This document shows positions 13,932 to 62,875 of a stretch of 64,000 bases of DNA, piece after piece. Under the pieces are notes generated by a model. That model ran no database searches, had not been told where the DNA came from, and saw only the letters and a program-made list of their open reading frames with translations. The DNA is from Fibrobacterota bacterium (lineage in GTDB: Bacteria > Fibrobacterota > Fibrobacteria > UBA11236): positions 1 through 64,000 of the forward strand of contig JAQBPO010000092.1 of assembly GCA_028287465.1 (NCBI GenBank), read 5' to 3'. Positions within the stretch are counted from its first letter, which is position 1. Every line of letters begins with the position of its first letter. The translations under genes were made by a program, and so were the position numbers.

Positions 13932-14321
13932 ATGCAAGAAAGCTCTTATGAAGGCCGCCAAACCCACATTCCCGGCATGGAAATGCCCGGTATCGAATCC
14001 TGGGAATTCCAATACCCGGGGACGGACACGACCATCGAGGTCAGCATTCCGGAGTTCACCTGCATCTGCCCCAAGACCGGCCTGCCGGACTTCGCGACCT
14101 TGCAGATCGCCTACGTGCCGAATGGACTCTGCCTGGAGCTGAAAAGCCTGAAGGAATACATCCTCAACTTCCGGGATATCGGGATTTTCCACGAGCACGT
14201 CGTGAACCGGGTACTGGGCGATTGCGTCAAGGCCTGCGCCCCGAAGCGCATGGAAATCCGGGGCGTGTTCAATGCCCGCGGCGGCATCCAGACCACGGCC
14301 GTCGCCAAGTACGGATCTTGA
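13932..14321 (+). CDS. queF: NADPH-dependent 7-cyano-7-deazaguanine reductase QueF
   Basis: QueF reduces preQ0 to preQ1 in queuosine biosynthesis. The 129-residue product is the short, unimodular type. It contains EFTCICPKTGLPDFATLQIA with the catalytic cysteine, ELKSLKEYILNFRDIGIFHE (the NADPH-binding and conserved His-Glu motif) and a C-terminal RGGIQTTAVAKYG. No other queuosine gene is in the window. A weak AGG site precedes the ATG. The last 19 coding bases are copied twice downstream in a 38-bp tandem array. Confidence 0.93.
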   Translation: MQESSYEGRQTHIPGMEMPGIESWEFQYPGTDTTIEVSIPEFTCICPKTGLPDFATLQIAYVPNGLCLELKSLKEYILNFRDIGIFHEHVVNRVLGDCVKACAPKRMEIRGVFNARGGIQTTAVAKYGS

Positions 14322-14392
14322 AAATGGGCGACGGGGCCGTCGCCAAGTACGGATTTTAGGGACTGGCGACGGGGCTGTCGCCAAATACGGAT
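14298..14392 (+). repeat. Three 38-bp-period direct repeats starting inside the queF 3' end
   Basis: The 19-base core GCCGTCGCCAAGTACGGAT occurs at 14298-14316 (encoding AVAKYG), 14336-14354 and, with two changes, 14374-14392. Spacing is exactly 38 bp. In copies 2 and 3 the linker plus core forms GGCGAC/GTCGCC stem-loops (14327-14344 and 14364-14383). The array ends the queF transcript region without a T-tract. Confidence 0.75.
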
Positions 14393-14513
14393 TTCAGAGT
14401 CTCAAAAAACGCCGTCAGGGGAAATCCCATTCTGCCATAAAGGCCAGGAACGGGGCGGGACAAAGGGTATCGAAAAGTCTAGATTTCGGATTCCGACACG
14501 AAGGGATAGCAAA

Positions 14514-17111: not shown

Positions 17112-17951
17112 TCAGCCCAACAGGATATTGTCTATCAGGCGCGTCTTGCCGTAGAAGACCGCCAAGGCCAGGACCGCGGGCACGTCCAGGGTGTCCAGCG
17201 GGGCCAGGGCGGATTGGGATACGGCTTCGATATAATCGATCCGCGTGGGCGACGACGCTTCGATCTCCCCTCGCATGATTCCCTTCAGAGCGGCGGCGGA
17301 TTTCCCGCCCTTGGCCCAGGCCTCCCGGGCCAGGAACAGCCCGCGAGAAAGCGCGGTCGCGCGCGACCTCTCGTCCGGTGAGAGGAATACGTTGCGGGAA
17401 CTCAGGGCCAAGCCGGAAGGCTCGCGCAGGGTCTCCACGATTTCCATTTCCAGGTCCAGCGAAAGGTCCCGCACCATCTTCTTCAGGATGAGCGCTTGCT
17501 GGATGTCCTTCTGCCCGAAATAGGCGCGCTGCGGTTGAACGATATTGAACAGCTTGAGCACCACGGTGCAGACTCCGCGGAAATGCCCGGGTCGCGCCGC
17601 GCCGCATAGATGCAGGTCCAATCCCGCGACTTCGCAAAAGGTCGAGAAATCCGGGGCATAGAAATCCGACGCCTCCGGAGCGAAGATCGCGGCCACGCCG
17701 GCTTCCCGGCACAAACGGCTGTCTTCGTCGAATGGCCGCGGATAACGGGCGAAATCCTCAGCGGGCCCGAACTGGAGGGGATTCACGAAGATGGAGACTA
17801 CGGTCAGCGGATCCCTACCGCGGCTGGACGCCACGAGTTTCAGATGGCCCGCGTGAAGCGCGCCCATGGTGGGCACGAATCCCACGCCCTGGTCAGGGGT
17901 CATGGCTTTGCGCCATTGCCTGTAATCCGCGATTGTCTTGAGGATCTCCAT
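17112..17951 (-). CDS. panC: Pantothenate synthetase
   Basis: PanC joins pantoate and beta-alanine using ATP, via pantoyl adenylate. The 279-residue product has GFVPTMGALHAGHLKLV with the HxGH nucleotide-binding motif, VSIFVNPLQFGPAEDFARYPR, YFGQKDIQQALILKKMVRDL, and the KMSKS-like loop LALSSRNVFLS. Length matches the family. It lies 16 bases after the folK-dNK fusion gene on the same strand, giving a small coenzyme and folate operon. panB and panD are not in the window. Confidence 0.95.
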   Translation of the reverse strand: MEILKTIADYRQWRKAMTPDQGVGFVPTMGALHAGHLKLVASSRGRDPLTVVSIFVNPLQFGPAEDFARYPRPFDEDSRLCREAGVAAIFAPEASDFYAPDFSTFCEVAGLDLHLCGAARPGHFRGVCTVVLKLFNIVQPQRAYFGQKDIQQALILKKMVRDLSLDLEMEIVETLREPSGLALSSRNVFLSPDERSRATALSRGLFLAREAWAKGGKSAAALKGIMRGEIEASSPTRIDYIEAVSQSALAPLDTLDVPAVLALAVFYGKTRLIDNILLG

Positions 17952-24086: not shown

Positions 24087-24117
24087 TTGCGTTTCCACCC
24101 CATTGGAAGGGTATAAT
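24087..24117 (+). promoter_or_regulatory. Promoter candidate TTGCGT-N19-TATAAT
   Basis: A perfect TATAAT at 24112-24117 with TTGCGT at 24087-24092 lies just before the FecR-like gene. The expected start site falls at or next to the GTG at 24124, so the mRNA might be leaderless. The 19-bp spacing is one or two longer than ideal. Confidence 0.5.
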
Positions 24118-24123
24118 AGCGGG

Positions 24124-25806
24124 GTGAAAGCCTCTTTCCCCGCCAGGCGGTTCGGGTTCCGGATCGCCGCATGGCTCCTATCAGTCTTCGTAGCCCAAGC
24201 CGCGGCCAAGATTCCCGTCAGCGTCCTGGGCGCCTATGTGGAAGGCCGGGACTCCCTCTATCTCGACGGACTTTCCCGTGATCTGGCCCAGGCTGTGGCC
24301 GAGGATACGGCCATGCTGGTCTTCGACCTGCGCAAGAGGAACGCCGGAGCATTGGACTCCGCCCATGCGAACGGGACCCTGCGGCAAGCGGGATTGCTCG
24401 CGCCCATGAACGGGAACCAGGTCAAGTGGGGCCTGGTGATGGATTGCGAGGAGATGAAGGAGGAATACCGGTGCAAGCTGCAAGTCATCGACATGAAAAC
24501 CGGGGCCGGCAGGAACCTGGACATCCTGCATATCCTTCTGGAGGCCGGCGAGAAGCGGAAGCCTTTCGCCCAGGCGGCGGCACAGGCCTTTACAGCCTCC
24601 TTCTTCCCGAGGAAGGATGACTCCCCCGTGCTCGGAACCTTGAAGCTCAAGGTACCGGCCAATCCCGCCATGCTGGTGCGCGGCCTCGCCATCATCAGGA
24701 AAGGATCCATTTCCGAAGTGCCCTTGGGGACCACCCTGGTGATCGGCGACGCCCCTCGGCTCATCGTCCTCAGCATGGAGAACATCCATTTCGTGCTCTA
24801 CCCGCACTCCTCGTACACCTATCTGCTTCCCAAGGTGGTCCAACTCAACCAGGGAAGCCTTGGAATCATCAAGGGCGTTGATTCCACGTCCATCGAAGGC
24901 AAGCTCCGGTCCGCCACCTCGCTCGATCAGAGCAATCTCATCTGGAAAACCCTGTCCAAGGTAGCGGCCATGGACAGTTCCAACCTGATTTGGAAAGGCC
25001 TCGGCCAGGTCACGTCCCTGGACAGCCACAACCTCATCCTTAGGAACCTGCAGAAGGTGACGGCCATGGACACGAACAATGTCCTGTTCAAGGCACTCGG
25101 GAAGGTAACGGCCTTGGACAGCAATAACCTGCTCCTTCGCACCTTGAGTCAGGTGGCCGCCATGGACAGTTCCAATCTCGTCTGGAAAGGACTGGGGCAG
25201 GTCTCCACCCTGGACAGCACCAACCTGATCTGGCGCAAACTGGGGGAGATCGCCTCCCTGGACAGCAACAGCATCTGGCGCAAGCTTGGGCTCCTCGCCT
25301 TCCAGGACGAGAGCGTGGTGTTGACCCCGTCCTTCATCGTGCGCGGCCAGCCCCAAGCGGTGATGTTCCGCCATGAAGGCAGCATTTCCACCATGGAAGT
25401 GGTGAAGGGCAGCATGTCCGCCCAGCCTTTGCTGGGCTCCCAGGGCGCCATCCCCATCGGCGCCATGCGCGTCGTGCGCACGCGCGGGTATTCCCTGAAG
25501 CAGGAGAGGCTCAATCCCACCCGCGGGGATCGCATCGTCCGCGAGTTCGAAACCGTGGATCCGAACAAGGGCACCCGGCCGTTCGCCATGTTCCTGCCGG
25601 GGAAATTCTTCGGCGCGGGCGCTTCCCTGCGCACCTCGGACCGTTCCATGCAAGGCTTCATCGTTTCCGGATCGAGGGAAATGGACATGGAGATGGACGT
25701 GCTTTCCTCCGAGAAGGAAGGTTGGACCGACTTCAGCGGCACCCTCCATTCTGGATCGCAGGAATCCGGATGTTACCTCTGCAGCCCCGATCGGCTGGGG
25801 CCATGA
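24124..25806 (+). CDS. Secreted FecR-like protein split by nine 16-residue repeats
   Basis: The 560-residue product has a signal peptide (RFGFRIAAWLLSVFVAQAAA). An N-terminal envelope domain (about 30-165) is followed by a FecR-like fold in two parts: residues about 185-247 (PLGTTLVIGDAPRLIVL, VLYPHSSY) and about 394-450 (LTPSFIVRGQPQAVMF, STMEVVKGSM). Between them, residues 252-393 hold nine repeats of the form [LM]DSxNLxWKxLxxV. FecR domains sense or carry structural roles in the periplasm. GTG at 24124 gives a proper signal peptide; ATG at 24055 would add 23 extra residues and lie before the promoter. The stop overlaps the next gene as ATGA. Confidence 0.72.
   Translation: MKASFPARRFGFRIAAWLLSVFVAQAAAKIPVSVLGAYVEGRDSLYLDGLSRDLAQAVAEDTAMLVFDLRKRNAGALDSAHANGTLRQAGLLAPMNGNQVKWGLVMDCEEMKEEYRCKLQVIDMKTGAGRNLDILHILLEAGEKRKPFAQAAAQAFTASFFPRKDDSPVLGTLKLKVPANPAMLVRGLAIIRKGSISEVPLGTTLVIGDAPRLIVLSMENIHFVLYPHSSYTYLLPKVVQLNQGSLGIIKGVDSTSIEGKLRSATSLDQSNLIWKTLSKVAAMDSSNLIWKGLGQVTSLDSHNLILRNLQKVTAMDTNNVLFKALGKVTALDSNNLLLRTLSQVAAMDSSNLVWKGLGQVSTLDSTNLIWRKLGEIASLDSNSIWRKLGLLAFQDESVVLTPSFIVRGQPQAVMFRHEGSISTMEVVKGSMSAQPLLGSQGAIPIGAMRVVRTRGYSLKQERLNPTRGDRIVREFETVDPNKGTRPFAMFLPGKFFGAGASLRTSDRSMQGFIVSGSREMDMEMDVLSSEKEGWTDFSGTLHSGSQESGCYLCSPDRLGP
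24877..25302 (+). repeat. Nine tandem 48-bp (16-residue) coding repeats
   Basis: Repeats begin with the residues VDSTS (24877), then LDQSN (24922), MDSSN (24970), LDSHN (25018), MDTNN (25066), LDSNN (25114), MDSSN (25162), LDSTN (25210) and LDSNS (25258). Internal copies are exactly 48 bp; the first and last encode 15 residues. Consensus is [LM]DSxNLxWKxLxxVxx, and alternate copies start L or M. The regular period with conserved D, N, L and V points to a solenoid. Confidence 0.93.
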
Positions 25807-27020
25807 GGGATCCGCGCCCCGTTCCGTCCCGCCGATCCGGGTACCGCCCGGTTCCGGCCTGGGCATCCGCATGCGCCCTCTTCTTGGCCCTGGCGGCCTC
25901 CGCCTTCGCGCAGAAAACGGATTCCGCCGAAGGCCCGCAGGAGCATGGCTTCCCCTGGATCGCGCACAGTTCCATCGACATCTTCTACCTTCCCTCGCCC
26001 GCCATCCCCGGCAAGGACTATCCCTATCAGGCCAGCCTCTACCAGGCGTTCACCATCCAGTCCCTGTCCTTCGCATGGTTCCATCTCGGGCTCCGTTCCC
26101 GCGAGACCCTGGCCCCTGGGTTCTCCCAGGCCTACCGCGAGCCCTTGGCGCTTAAGCTGCAAGGCAGCGCCGAAGTGATCCAGGATTACCTTTGGGTCAC
26201 CTTGGGGGGCAATATCCCCATGCTCAACCGGACCATGGATCTTTCAGACACCCTGGCGTTGTACCAGGTGATGAACGGCTATAATCCCATGCCCTATGCC
26301 GCATTCCTGTCCCCGCAGGCCCTGCATGCCTCGATCTACGGCCGCTACGCCTGGACCAATTGGACCTTGCTGACGGGGGTCAGTTACGTGCGGCCGGCCC
26401 TGTTCTCGATCATCCCCGATAAATCCTTCTTTCCCGCACCTTACTTCGACCTGGATGCCCGCGCCATCTACCAGGGGAGGGCGGCCCGCCATCGCTTCGA
26501 TCTGAAAGGTTCGTTTTTCGCGGACGAGGGGAACGATATCCGCATACCCGCCCACAATGAAGGCGATTTGATCCAGTTCCGCTATGGATACCTGAAATCC
26601 CTGCGGCATGTCGGCTGGCAGGCGGGAGCCGGAAGCGCAGTCAAGCTGCCCGATGCCAATCGCCGGCTCAAGCTCAAGTCGGAATTGGCGCAGCCGGATC
26701 GGGACGACAACCTGCAAAGGCTTTTCGCGGAGTTCTCCCTGGCCTGGGCGCCGGATCCGGACATCATCTGGAGGCTCCATCTCCTGCCCAAGGCCCTCTT
26801 CACGTGGAACGGGGAGCAAACCGGCCACGAGACCGAGACCGGCCTCTCCGTGGGCCTCAAGATTTGGGAGTACCACCGCCTGCGGCTCACCGGCACCATG
26901 CTTTACGGCCAGGTCGCGGATGAAACCTATACGGGATTCGGATTCCGGGGCGAGTTCGCCTTCCGGCATCTGGGGTTCCAGGATATCGACGACGGATCCG
27001 ACCAAGGGGATCCGCAATGA
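25803..27020 (+). CDS. Predicted outer-membrane barrel-like protein of unknown function
   Basis: The 405-residue product has a signal peptide (VPAWASACALFLALAASAFA, cleaved before QKTDS). The mature part alternates aromatic-rich strands and polar turns, e.g. QSLSFAWFHLGLRSRETL, IYGRYAWTNWTLLTGVSYV and the C-terminal YGQVADETYTGFGFRGEFAF, a pattern typical of outer-membrane barrels. No specific family was recognised. Its ATG overlaps the stop of the FecR-like gene (ATGA), so the two are coupled and may form an envelope pair. A 27-base gap leads to the signalling gene. Confidence 0.62.
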   Translation: MRDPRPVPSRRSGYRPVPAWASACALFLALAASAFAQKTDSAEGPQEHGFPWIAHSSIDIFYLPSPAIPGKDYPYQASLYQAFTIQSLSFAWFHLGLRSRETLAPGFSQAYREPLALKLQGSAEVIQDYLWVTLGGNIPMLNRTMDLSDTLALYQVMNGYNPMPYAAFLSPQALHASIYGRYAWTNWTLLTGVSYVRPALFSIIPDKSFFPAPYFDLDARAIYQGRAARHRFDLKGSFFADEGNDIRIPAHNEGDLIQFRYGYLKSLRHVGWQAGAGSAVKLPDANRRLKLKSELAQPDRDDNLQRLFAEFSLAWAPDPDIIWRLHLLPKALFTWNGEQTGHETETGLSVGLKIWEYHRLRLTGTMLYGQVADETYTGFGFRGEFAFRHLGFQDIDDGSDQGDPQ

Positions 27021-27047: not shown

Positions 27048-28580
27048 ATGGAAGATTTGCGCAAATGGTACCGGGGCAGCCTCCCGGCCAGCATCGACGC
27101 CCTGAAGGCGGCCAGAAAGTCCCTGGCCAAGGATCCGGGAGGGGTGGAATCCGCGCGCCGGATAGCCCATTCCCTGCGGAGTTCGGCCTCCGCTTACGGG
27201 TTCCCGAACCTGAGCGAAGCCGCCAGGGTGTTGGAGAGGGCCCGCCCGGAGAACATCTCCGTTTGCCTTGACCAATTGCTCTCGGAATTGATCCGCGTGA
27301 GCGCGGCGATGGGGCCCGCGGATCTGCCCGGCATCCTCATCATCGAGCATGACGCGCAGATGTGCCGCTTGCTCGAAACCATCCTTTCCGGATCCGATAG
27401 GGAGGTGATTGCCCTGGGAAGCGCGGGCGAAGCCCTCGCCGTCCTCGAGGAACGCCAATTCGCTTTGATCGTCCTGGATCTTTCCCTTCCCGATACGGAC
27501 GGGCGCAATTTCCTGGTGCTCTTGCGCGAGCGTTCCGCCACCGCGGGAGTGCCCGTGATCGTGCTATCCGGGATCGGCGGCCCGCAGCCGAAAACCGAAT
27601 GCTACGCCCTGGGGGCGGACGCTTATTTCGAAAAGCCCCTGGCTCCGGAAGTGCTCAAGGCCGCGGTCTCCGCGCGCCTTCATCGATCCGTGGAACATCG
27701 GCGCGAGGCGCGCCAGGACGCCCTGACGGGACTGCCCAATCGGGCCGCGTTCTGCGAAGCCTTTCAGCGCGCGATGGCGATGGCGGCCCGCAAGAAGGAG
27801 CCCGCGACCCTGGCCTTGCTCGATTTCGATCTGCTCAAGCGTATCAACGATCATTTGGGCCACGTTGCCGGCGATGCCGCCTTGCGCCACGCCGCGCGCG
27901 CCTTTTCCGACGCCTTGCGCCGATCCGATCTGCTCGCCCGCTGGGGCGGGGACGAATTCGCCCTGCTTCTTCCCAGCACGGACCTGCAGGGCGCGCGGTT
28001 CGCCTTGGAGAAGATGTTCGCGACCCTTGCCACCTCGCCTTTCCGGACACAGGACGGGAGGGCCGTGCCGATGTCCTTTTCCGCAGGCATTGTTTCCGTG
28101 CCGGCCGATGCCAGCGTCGAGCGGGCTATGGCCGAGGCGGATCGGTACCTTTATCTTGCCAAGACGAACGGCCGAGGCCGCATGGTCTCCGAATCCGATC
28201 ATGCCAACGCCCCCATGAAGAAGATCCTTTTGGCGGAGGACGATGAGGATGTGGCCGCCATCGTTTCGGACAGTCTGCATCGGGAGGGATTCGAGGTGGT
28301 CCATTGCCGCAATGGCGCGGCCGCCCTACGATCGGCCCTGGCCATGCCTTGCGCCTTGTGGATCCTGGACCTCAAGCAGGAGGCGGAGGAGGGGCGGAGC
28401 CTGCTTTCGGATCTGCGCGCCGGTTGGCGCGGAAACCGCGTGCCGGTTTTGATGATCGCATCCTTGGGAACCGACCAGGCCTTGGCGCGCGGTTTCCAGT
28501 TGGGGGCGGACGATTACCTGGTCAAACCGTTTTCACCGTATGACCTGATGACCCGGGTCCACAACCTGTTGCGGAAATGA
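27048..28580 (+). CDS. HPt-REC-GGDEF-REC signalling protein, predicted diguanylate cyclase
   Basis: The 510-residue cytoplasmic protein has an HPt domain (about 1-88, phospho-His H41 in AHSLRSSASAYG), a receiver (about 94-208, D144 in VLDLSLPD), a GGDEF domain (about 220-380, WGGDEF with the last G/D at 300-304) and a second receiver (about 391-510, D441 in ILDLKQE, conserved K in LVKPF). The GGDEF domain keeps RRSD five residues ahead of GGDEF, the inhibitory c-di-GMP site. It is thus a phosphorelay-controlled c-di-GMP synthase with two phospho inputs. No histidine kinase is adjacent. It follows the FecR-like and barrel genes by 27 bases; the ribosome site is weak. Confidence 0.88.
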   Translation: MEDLRKWYRGSLPASIDALKAARKSLAKDPGGVESARRIAHSLRSSASAYGFPNLSEAARVLERARPENISVCLDQLLSELIRVSAAMGPADLPGILIIEHDAQMCRLLETILSGSDREVIALGSAGEALAVLEERQFALIVLDLSLPDTDGRNFLVLLRERSATAGVPVIVLSGIGGPQPKTECYALGADAYFEKPLAPEVLKAAVSARLHRSVEHRREARQDALTGLPNRAAFCEAFQRAMAMAARKKEPATLALLDFDLLKRINDHLGHVAGDAALRHAARAFSDALRRSDLLARWGGDEFALLLPSTDLQGARFALEKMFATLATSPFRTQDGRAVPMSFSAGIVSVPADASVERAMAEADRYLYLAKTNGRGRMVSESDHANAPMKKILLAEDDEDVAAIVSDSLHREGFEVVHCRNGAAALRSALAMPCALWILDLKQEAEEGRSLLSDLRAGWRGNRVPVLMIASLGTDQALARGFQLGADDYLVKPFSPYDLMTRVHNLLRK

Positions 28581-51020: not shown

Positions 51021-51050
51021 TTGCGGCGGATCGGCGCCGGCCCTTATAAT
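51021..51050 (+). promoter_or_regulatory. Promoter TTGCGG-N18-TATAAT
   Basis: TTGCGG at 51021-51026 and TATAAT at 51045-51050 are separated by 18 bp, the best sigma70-like promoter in the window. The expected start site (about 51057) lies at the first start codons of the next gene, so the mRNA may be leaderless or have about 13 leader bases. Confidence 0.65.
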
Positions 51051-51054
51051 CGGC

Positions 51055-51819
51055 TTGGTGCAGTCCTCGATGTTCTCGCAGATAGCCTCGGTTTTCTCGA
51101 CCCATGGAGTGGTGCTTCCCGGCTCCGAGCGCATTCCCGTTTACAAGAAGGCTCCCGAAGCTCCCTGCGACCATAAGAACAACTGTTCCTGCTTCGCACC
51201 CAAGTTCGAGCAGGCTTCCGCGAAGCTGGAATTGTCCAAGCGGGCCCGGGACGGGATATCGGCGGCGGCCGCGCGGAAAGAGTCCGGTTCCATGGATGCC
51301 GCGGCGTCCGAAGGGGCGCCCGGTTCCAAGTCCTCCGATGGCAAGCCGCTAAGCGAGGATGAGAAAAGCCAGGTCGTTGACCTGGAGAAACGCGACCGCG
51401 AGGTGAAGGCCCATGAAGCCGCGCATTCCGCCAATGCGGGCGGGTTCGCCAAGGGCGGCGCCGGATATGAATATCAGACGGGTCCGGACGGCAGGAAGTA
51501 CGCCGTGGGCGGCCATGTGGATATCGACGTGAGCCCGGTACGGGGAGACCCGCAAGCCACCCTTCAGAAGGCGCAGACTGTGCAGCGCGCGGCTTTGGCC
51601 CCGGCGGATCCTTCCGGCCAGGACCGGGCGGTCGCCGCGGCCGCGGCCCAGATGGCCATGCAGGCCCAAAAGGAAATGAACCAGGGTGGAGAAGCGGGCG
51701 GGACCGGGGGCCCGGTGGACGGAAACCGCACGTCCCAGCCCGACGGCGGCCGCGACCCCAGGCGCGCCTATTCCCGGGTCCCATCCAGGACGGGATCGGG
51801 TCTCAGCGTCTACGCCTGA
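51055..51819 (+). CDS. SprA-related putative metalloprotease (HExxH)
   Basis: The product (up to 254 residues) contains SQVVDLEKRDREVKAHEAAH then GGAGYEYQTGPDGRKYAVGG and HVDIDVSPV, the core of the SprA-related family (PF12118, also called putative metalloprotease CJM1_0395 type). HEAAH at about 120-124 is an HExxH zinc site. The N-terminus has cysteine-rich CDHKNNCSCF; the C-terminus is Gly-rich and disordered. There is no clear signal peptide. Starts at 51055 (TTG), 51058 (GTG) or 51070 (ATG) are possible; the promoter at 51045 favours 51058 or 51070. Activity is untested for the family. Confidence 0.8.
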   Translation: MVQSSMFSQIASVFSTHGVVLPGSERIPVYKKAPEAPCDHKNNCSCFAPKFEQASAKLELSKRARDGISAAAARKESGSMDAAASEGAPGSKSSDGKPLSEDEKSQVVDLEKRDREVKAHEAAHSANAGGFAKGGAGYEYQTGPDGRKYAVGGHVDIDVSPVRGDPQATLQKAQTVQRAALAPADPSGQDRAVAAAAAQMAMQAQKEMNQGGEAGGTGGPVDGNRTSQPDGGRDPRRAYSRVPSRTGSGLSVYA

Positions 51820-62082: not shown

Positions 62083-62829
62083 ATGGAAAGCCTAAGCCAC
62101 ACCATCCTGGTGGTAGACGACGAAGCGCATATCCGGGACTTCGCCCGGCACGTGCTGGAGAACCAGGGCTACCAGGTGCTGACCGCCAAGAACGGCGTGG
62201 AAGCCGTCCTCCTGGGCGAGCACCACCCCGGCGCCATCAGCGCGCTCATCACGGATCTGAACATGCCCCCCTACATGGGCGGATGCGAATTGGCCCAGTC
62301 CATGCGCCGCATGCGTCCCGGAATCGGGGTGATTTACATTTCCGGTTACCCCGCCGACGCGGTCGTCCAGGGCGAGGTGCTGGAGGAGAAGGCGGATTTC
62401 CTGGCCAAGCCCTTCACGCCGGAAATGTTGATCAACCGCCTGAAGGAAATGCTGCGTCGCCCGGCGCCGGCCCCCGTTGAACAACCGCGCAAAACCGATC
62501 GAGCCATCCTCCTTCTCGTCCCGGACGGGACCTTGCGCACGGGTATCGCCGCCCTGTTGCGCGTGGAGGGCATGCAGGTACTGGAGTCGCGCAATTTCGC
62601 CGAAGCCTTGATCATCTGCCAATGGCATGTGGGCCTAATCGGCTTGTTCCTGGCCGACAAGGATATGCTGGCCCGCCTGCCCTCGGAATTGCTCGAACGC
62701 CTGGGTCAGGTGCGGCCGGAGATGCGCATCCTGGCGGCTTCGGCGGCCCCCGGGGAGGGTGAGCCCATCCATGAAAGGGTGCGCCGGCTATTGGAGGAGT
62801 GGGGCCTGGAAGTCACCGGAGAGGAATAA
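62083..62829 (+). CDS. Response regulator with a second, degenerate receiver domain
   Basis: The 248-residue product has a receiver (about 6-126): VVDDEAH acid pair (D12, D13), phospho-Asp D58 in ITDLNMPP, GYPADAV and the conserved LAKPFTPE lysine. A second, receiver-like segment (about 138-240, AILLLVPDGTLRTGIAALLR) lacks the phospho-Asp pattern and probably only binds partners. No DNA-binding domain, so it acts by protein contact. The kinase is not in the window. Its 3' end lies in a 15-bp tandem repeat. Confidence 0.85.
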   Translation: MESLSHTILVVDDEAHIRDFARHVLENQGYQVLTAKNGVEAVLLGEHHPGAISALITDLNMPPYMGGCELAQSMRRMRPGIGVIYISGYPADAVVQGEVLEEKADFLAKPFTPEMLINRLKEMLRRPAPAPVEQPRKTDRAILLLVPDGTLRTGIAALLRVEGMQVLESRNFAEALIICQWHVGLIGLFLADKDMLARLPSELLERLGQVRPEMRILAASAAPGEGEPIHERVRRLLEEWGLEVTGEE

Positions 62830-62875
62830 ACCGGAGAGGAATAAACCGGAGAGGAATAAACCGGGGAGGAATAAG
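62816..62875 (+). repeat. 15-bp tandem repeat carrying stop codons at the response-regulator 3' end
   Basis: CCGGAGAGGAATAAA occurs three times from 62816, then CCGGGGAGGAATAAG at 62861. The gene's TAA (62827-62829) is in the first copy, and later copies repeat TAA in the same frame. Each unit also contains GAGGAAT, a ribosome-site-like string. Confidence 0.8.

Follow-up and report, generated by a model that had tools for sequence, protein, structure and literature searches.

The DNA examined here is a stretch of 64,000 nucleotides from a Fibrobacterota genome (the window), and the locus of interest is a gene whose product carries nine tandem copies of a short repeat between two beta-rich segments (Table 1). 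From its N terminus, the protein would comprise a signal peptide, a domain resembling the TolB-N/PelC fold, and a FecR-like beta domain interrupted by the repeats as nine short amphipathic helices. The signal peptide-like N-terminus suggests that the protein is exported, as the preliminary description of this DNA had assumed in calling it periplasmic; the sensor role given to it there would be conjectural. In the immediate vicinity of the repeat gene lie genes for a TetR protein, an ABC1 kinase, a barrel-like protein and a GGDEF regulator; genes upstream vary between species, and the barrel-like gene directly follows the repeat gene in six of six genomes of the genus. This linkage is strict, and the distribution of the barrel-like gene is that of the repeat gene, namely all six genomes of the genus and none of the other 162 Fibrobacterota genomes searched. 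The barrel-like protein has no profile match, and its sequence abounds in aromatic residues alternating with polar ones; judging from its sequence, it is probably an outer-membrane barrel. The Hpt-REC-GGDEF-REC gene lies in the same direction as the repeat and barrel-like genes, and was not found in this region of the sixth genome (L020, G003).

Table 1. Features of the repeat-protein locus, in coordinates of the window
Feature	Coordinates	Strand	Details
TTGCGT, -35-like element	24087..24092	+	19 bases before TATAAT; TTGC invariant in six orthologous upstream regions
TATAAT, -10-like element	24112..24117	+	six bases 5' of the GTG start; invariant in six species
Repeat-protein gene	24124..25806	+	560 aa; GTG start; stop TGA 25804-25806; orthologues in six genomes
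Putative signal peptide	24124..24210	+	residues 1-29; hydrophobic segment; helix 8-27 in AlphaFold model
N-terminal domain, predicted TolB-N/PelC-like fold	24214..24606	+	residues 31-161; AlphaFold and Foldseek
Putative FecR-like domain, first half	24637..24873	+	residues 172-250; joined-flank alignment to FecR paralogue; no Pfam match
Nine repeats	24877..25302	+	consensus LDSxN[LV][IL][WLF]KxLxxVxx; 15 + 7x16 + 15 residues; number fixed in six species
Putative FecR-like domain, second half	25303..25443	+	residues 394-440: QDESVVLTPSFIVRGQ...VVKGSMSAQP
C-terminal region	25444..25803	+	ends in conserved CYLCSPDRLGP
Exported, probable outer-membrane beta-barrel gene	25803..27020	+	ATG overlapping the repeat-gene stop; barrel predicted from sequence
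Hpt-REC-GGDEF-REC regulator gene	27048..28580	+	downstream in 5/6 genomes

Because the invariant TATAAT lies so close to the GTG codon, the transcript of the repeat gene is predicted to be leaderless. Three TATAAT-N5-8-RTG arrangements occur on the forward strand of the window (0.47 expected); the two others, at 17231-17247 and 51045-51060, may be further leaderless starts. Elsewhere in the window, four near-perfect tandem 15-mers (ACCGGAGAGGAATAA), each with GGAG and TAA, occupy 62815-62874 at an apparent gene end. Another tandem repeat, of 38 bases (GGCCGTCGCCAAGTACGGATTTT...) and 2.6 copies, lies at 14297-14394, where an open frame ends; this frame is preceded, at a distance of a few hundred bases, by the inverted elements GCAAATTG/CAATTTGC.

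The array begins with the degenerate copy VDSTSIEGKLRSATS and ends with LDSNSIWRKLGLLAF, with seven 16-residue copies between them, so that both the boundaries and the number of copies given in the preliminary description were exact, as was its remark that the first and last copies are one residue short (15 versus 16 residues). When the protein was compared with itself at an offset of 16 residues, 51 identities were counted, against a maximum of 26 at any offset in 2000 shuffled sequences, and the array was also detected by TRF as a 48-base periodicity at the DNA level. A superperiod of two copies (32 residues; 96 bp in TRF) was rejected, being not significant at the protein level (p 0.06 for identity and 0.23 for BLOSUM scores). 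Among the 42 full-length copies of the six species, Asn5 is invariant and position 9 is Lys or Arg in 41, while position 8 is most often tryptophan and, from copy 2 to copy 8, follows the order W W L F L W W in each species (n=6). The alternation of Leu and Met at position 1, which had been taken as a property of the repeats, is confined to this genome; in the remaining five species, Leu occupies the position almost throughout.

Each of the six genomes of the genus has an orthologue of the repeat gene, with 64-79% identity, and no relative was found outside the genus among the 168 Fibrobacterota genomes searched. A match in genome L007 (E 3.9e-4) was discarded as an unrelated Ser-rich low-complexity stretch with stops. 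No relative was found in plasmids, nor was one found in viral contigs or, with the repeat region as query, in phages; a scan of genome contigs, which reaches close relatives only, returned two records, and these represent two species that are already among the six. The repeats had no family match in Pfam, NCBIfam, PHROGs or PDB sequences, and no profile of known repeat families (TPR, HEAT, LRR and others) matched them; weak hits to Pfam Tse3_N, NRF and DUF3161 (E >= 0.04) were taken as chance. The repeat is thus absent from the libraries searched, in line with the earlier remark that no described family is known to have this layout, and a literature search returned no paper.

Conservation of codons between copies had been read as a sign of recent expansion. 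However, identical residues in two copies are encoded by the same codon 47% of the time, close to the 45% that the gene's codon usage would give by itself, so that synonymous sites between copies are saturated. Repeat numbers, counted in each species, do not vary: in each of the six genomes the array has precisely nine copies, whose lengths also agree. Copies at the same position are 81% identical between species, whereas different copies within one protein are 52% identical, and each copy therefore carries its own conserved identity across the six species. Together with the chance level of codon sharing, these figures indicate that the copies predate the diversification of the genus, and the periodicity visible in the DNA of this array does not mean recent expansion.

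The repeats are also the most constrained segment of the protein and are under strong purifying selection. Their pN/pS ratio is 0.186; the flanks have ratios of 0.25 and 0.216, the C-terminus 0.30 and the N-terminal domain 0.438, values that serve for comparison between segments and not as absolute measures, since synonymous differences between species are near saturation. This lowest ratio of all segments disfavours a flexible spacer, and the arm suggested in the preliminary description is unlikely, the repeats being conserved at least as much as their flanks. The detectable 48-base periodicity would fit a recently expanded flexible arm of variable length; given the fixed nine copies, their separate identities, the chance-level codon sharing and the purifying selection, we consider such an arm very improbable. 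The array is an old structural module of fixed number, without recent expansion.

Two lines of analysis suggest that each repeat forms one amphipathic helix of 11-12 residues preceded by a DSxN turn. When hydrophobicity was averaged over the full-length copies, the largest moment (positions 5-15) was found at 90-100 degrees, and turn propensity peaked at positions 2-5. An AlphaFold model of the array alone contains eight helices of 11-12 residues, each beginning near position 6 and ending at position 1 of the following copy, and the DSxN stretch forms a loop; the mean pLDDT is low, at 39. Confidence in the repeat region is low in both AlphaFold models, of the array alone and of the protein, a probable consequence of having only six close sequences. 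The moment and the model agree but are not fully independent, and a Foldseek search with this model (pLDDT 39) gave no match below E 7. Were the repeats instead a beta-solenoid with the invariant Asn as its ladder, the constancy of Asn5 and the many residues of high beta propensity would be accounted for; this arrangement is improbable, as the hydrophobic moment favours 90-100 over 160-180 degrees and AlphaFold places helices in nearly every copy, albeit with low confidence.

Amphipathic helices may also lie on a membrane and hold the protein flat on the leaflet rather than pack into a module. The frequent Trp at position 8 and the basic residue at position 9 would suit such an orientation, as would the hydrophobic moment (0.34-0.45) and net positive charge of every repeat helix. 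The hydrophobic positions, however, span a wide arc, and the copy-specific conservation of position 8 suggests specific packing over generic contact with lipid; we regard the membrane-lying arrangement as unlikely. In a packed module, each repeat would form a helix over about positions 6-17 with Asn5 as its likely N-cap, and the packed helices would present one structured docking surface of set length.

The N-terminal domain (residues 31-161) is the only part of the protein predicted with moderate confidence (AlphaFold pLDDT about 57-77 by block). It had no match in Pfam; when its model was compared with solved structures by Foldseek, TolB (E 1.1e-4) and PelC (E 3.3e-4) were retrieved with probability 1.00, matches ranging to 1e-3, and the TM score (target) against PelC was about 0.5. 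The domain thus appears to resemble the TolB-N/PelC type, with a beta-alpha-beta-alpha-beta-beta-beta-alpha fold.

The two segments flanking the array had been described as halves of one FecR-like domain. They are beta-rich on both sides, and this part of the description stands. With the array removed, they can be aligned as a single domain to a FecR paralogue that five of the six genomes contain; the Pfam FecR family (PF04773; gathering cut-off 24 bits), on the other hand, matched neither the six orthologues nor the flanks joined after excision of the array at E <= 10. With the filters of HMMER switched off, the flanks scored near zero bits against FecR, and AlphaFold confidence is low over their region (pLDDT about 21-32). 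Against 31 FecR domains, drawn from the phylum and from the genome itself, hhalign matched the second half locally and in the correct register, but weakly (P 0.043; 7 of 150 column shuffles as good), and its global score was reached by one of 150 shuffles; none of these profile comparisons makes homology to FecR significant. The joined flanks aligned with the FecR paralogue in the expected register (6 of 1000 column shuffles as good, a figure somewhat flattered, as the paralogue was picked after the resemblance had been seen), with LNQGSLGIIKG joined to FQDESVVLTPSFIVRGQ facing LTSGRVMATSQQEEALVRVVTPWGIAVGR across the junction. The flanks might belong to some other beta-rich domain, or to two separate domains that the repeats merely link, as the missing Pfam match and the weak comparison with the 31 domains would allow. 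We consider this rather unlikely, because the alignment of the joined flanks keeps the right register through the junction and is better than that of either half alone (37 and 84 of 500 shuffles as good). The flanks are plausibly a diverged FecR-like domain, and the FecR domains examined here do have, as had been noted, a short loop at the position of the array.

Taken together, these observations are compatible with an envelope protein that would be periplasmic and probably associated with the outer membrane, and whose fixed helical module would dock to the neighbouring barrel or to the membrane. We put this forward as a tentative reading that has a good chance of being correct without being the probable one. 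The docking partner would most likely be the outer-membrane barrel encoded by the adjoining gene or the inner face of the outer membrane, although both role and partner are what we infer. It is possible, but somewhat more doubtful, that the repeat (LDSxNLxWKxLxxVxx) represents an undescribed 16-residue one-helix module, present as a nine-copy block in a FecR-like loop and forming part of an envelope complex with a dedicated barrel unique to the genus. If so, a unit with a single helix in 16 residues would be unusually short for a helical repeat, the insertion of a fixed number of copies would be a case of a beta domain extended by a structured helical module, and the two proteins would constitute a genus-specific envelope system in a little-studied phylum, possibly tied to c-di-GMP signalling.

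Comparison with known systems places the protein near three groups. The periplasmic proteins TolB-N, PelC, LpoB and GNA1162 are outer-membrane-associated, and residues 31-161 would share with domains of this type a common predicted fold and a periplasmic setting; sequence identity to them is 9-17%, and the repeat protein continues with a different domain, not with the beta-propeller of TolB. Tandem amphipathic helices are common to the predicted array and to alpha-solenoid repeats. In TPR, HEAT and Sel1 repeats, a unit consists of two helices in roughly 34-40 residues, whereas the repeat protein would have one helix per 16 residues, with no profile match to these families and no significant two-copy period. 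With FecR domains (PF04773) of the Fibrobacterota type, represented by the paralogue of the genus, the flanks share the motif order GTTLVIGD...LYPHSSYTY...VVQLNQGSLGI...VVLTPSFIVRG...VVKGSMSA. Unlike FecR anti-sigma regulators, the repeat gene has no sigma factor (ECF) gene beside it, and its product lacks the usual IRGT motif, falls below Pfam detection and carries, in place of the short loop, an insertion of 142 residues.
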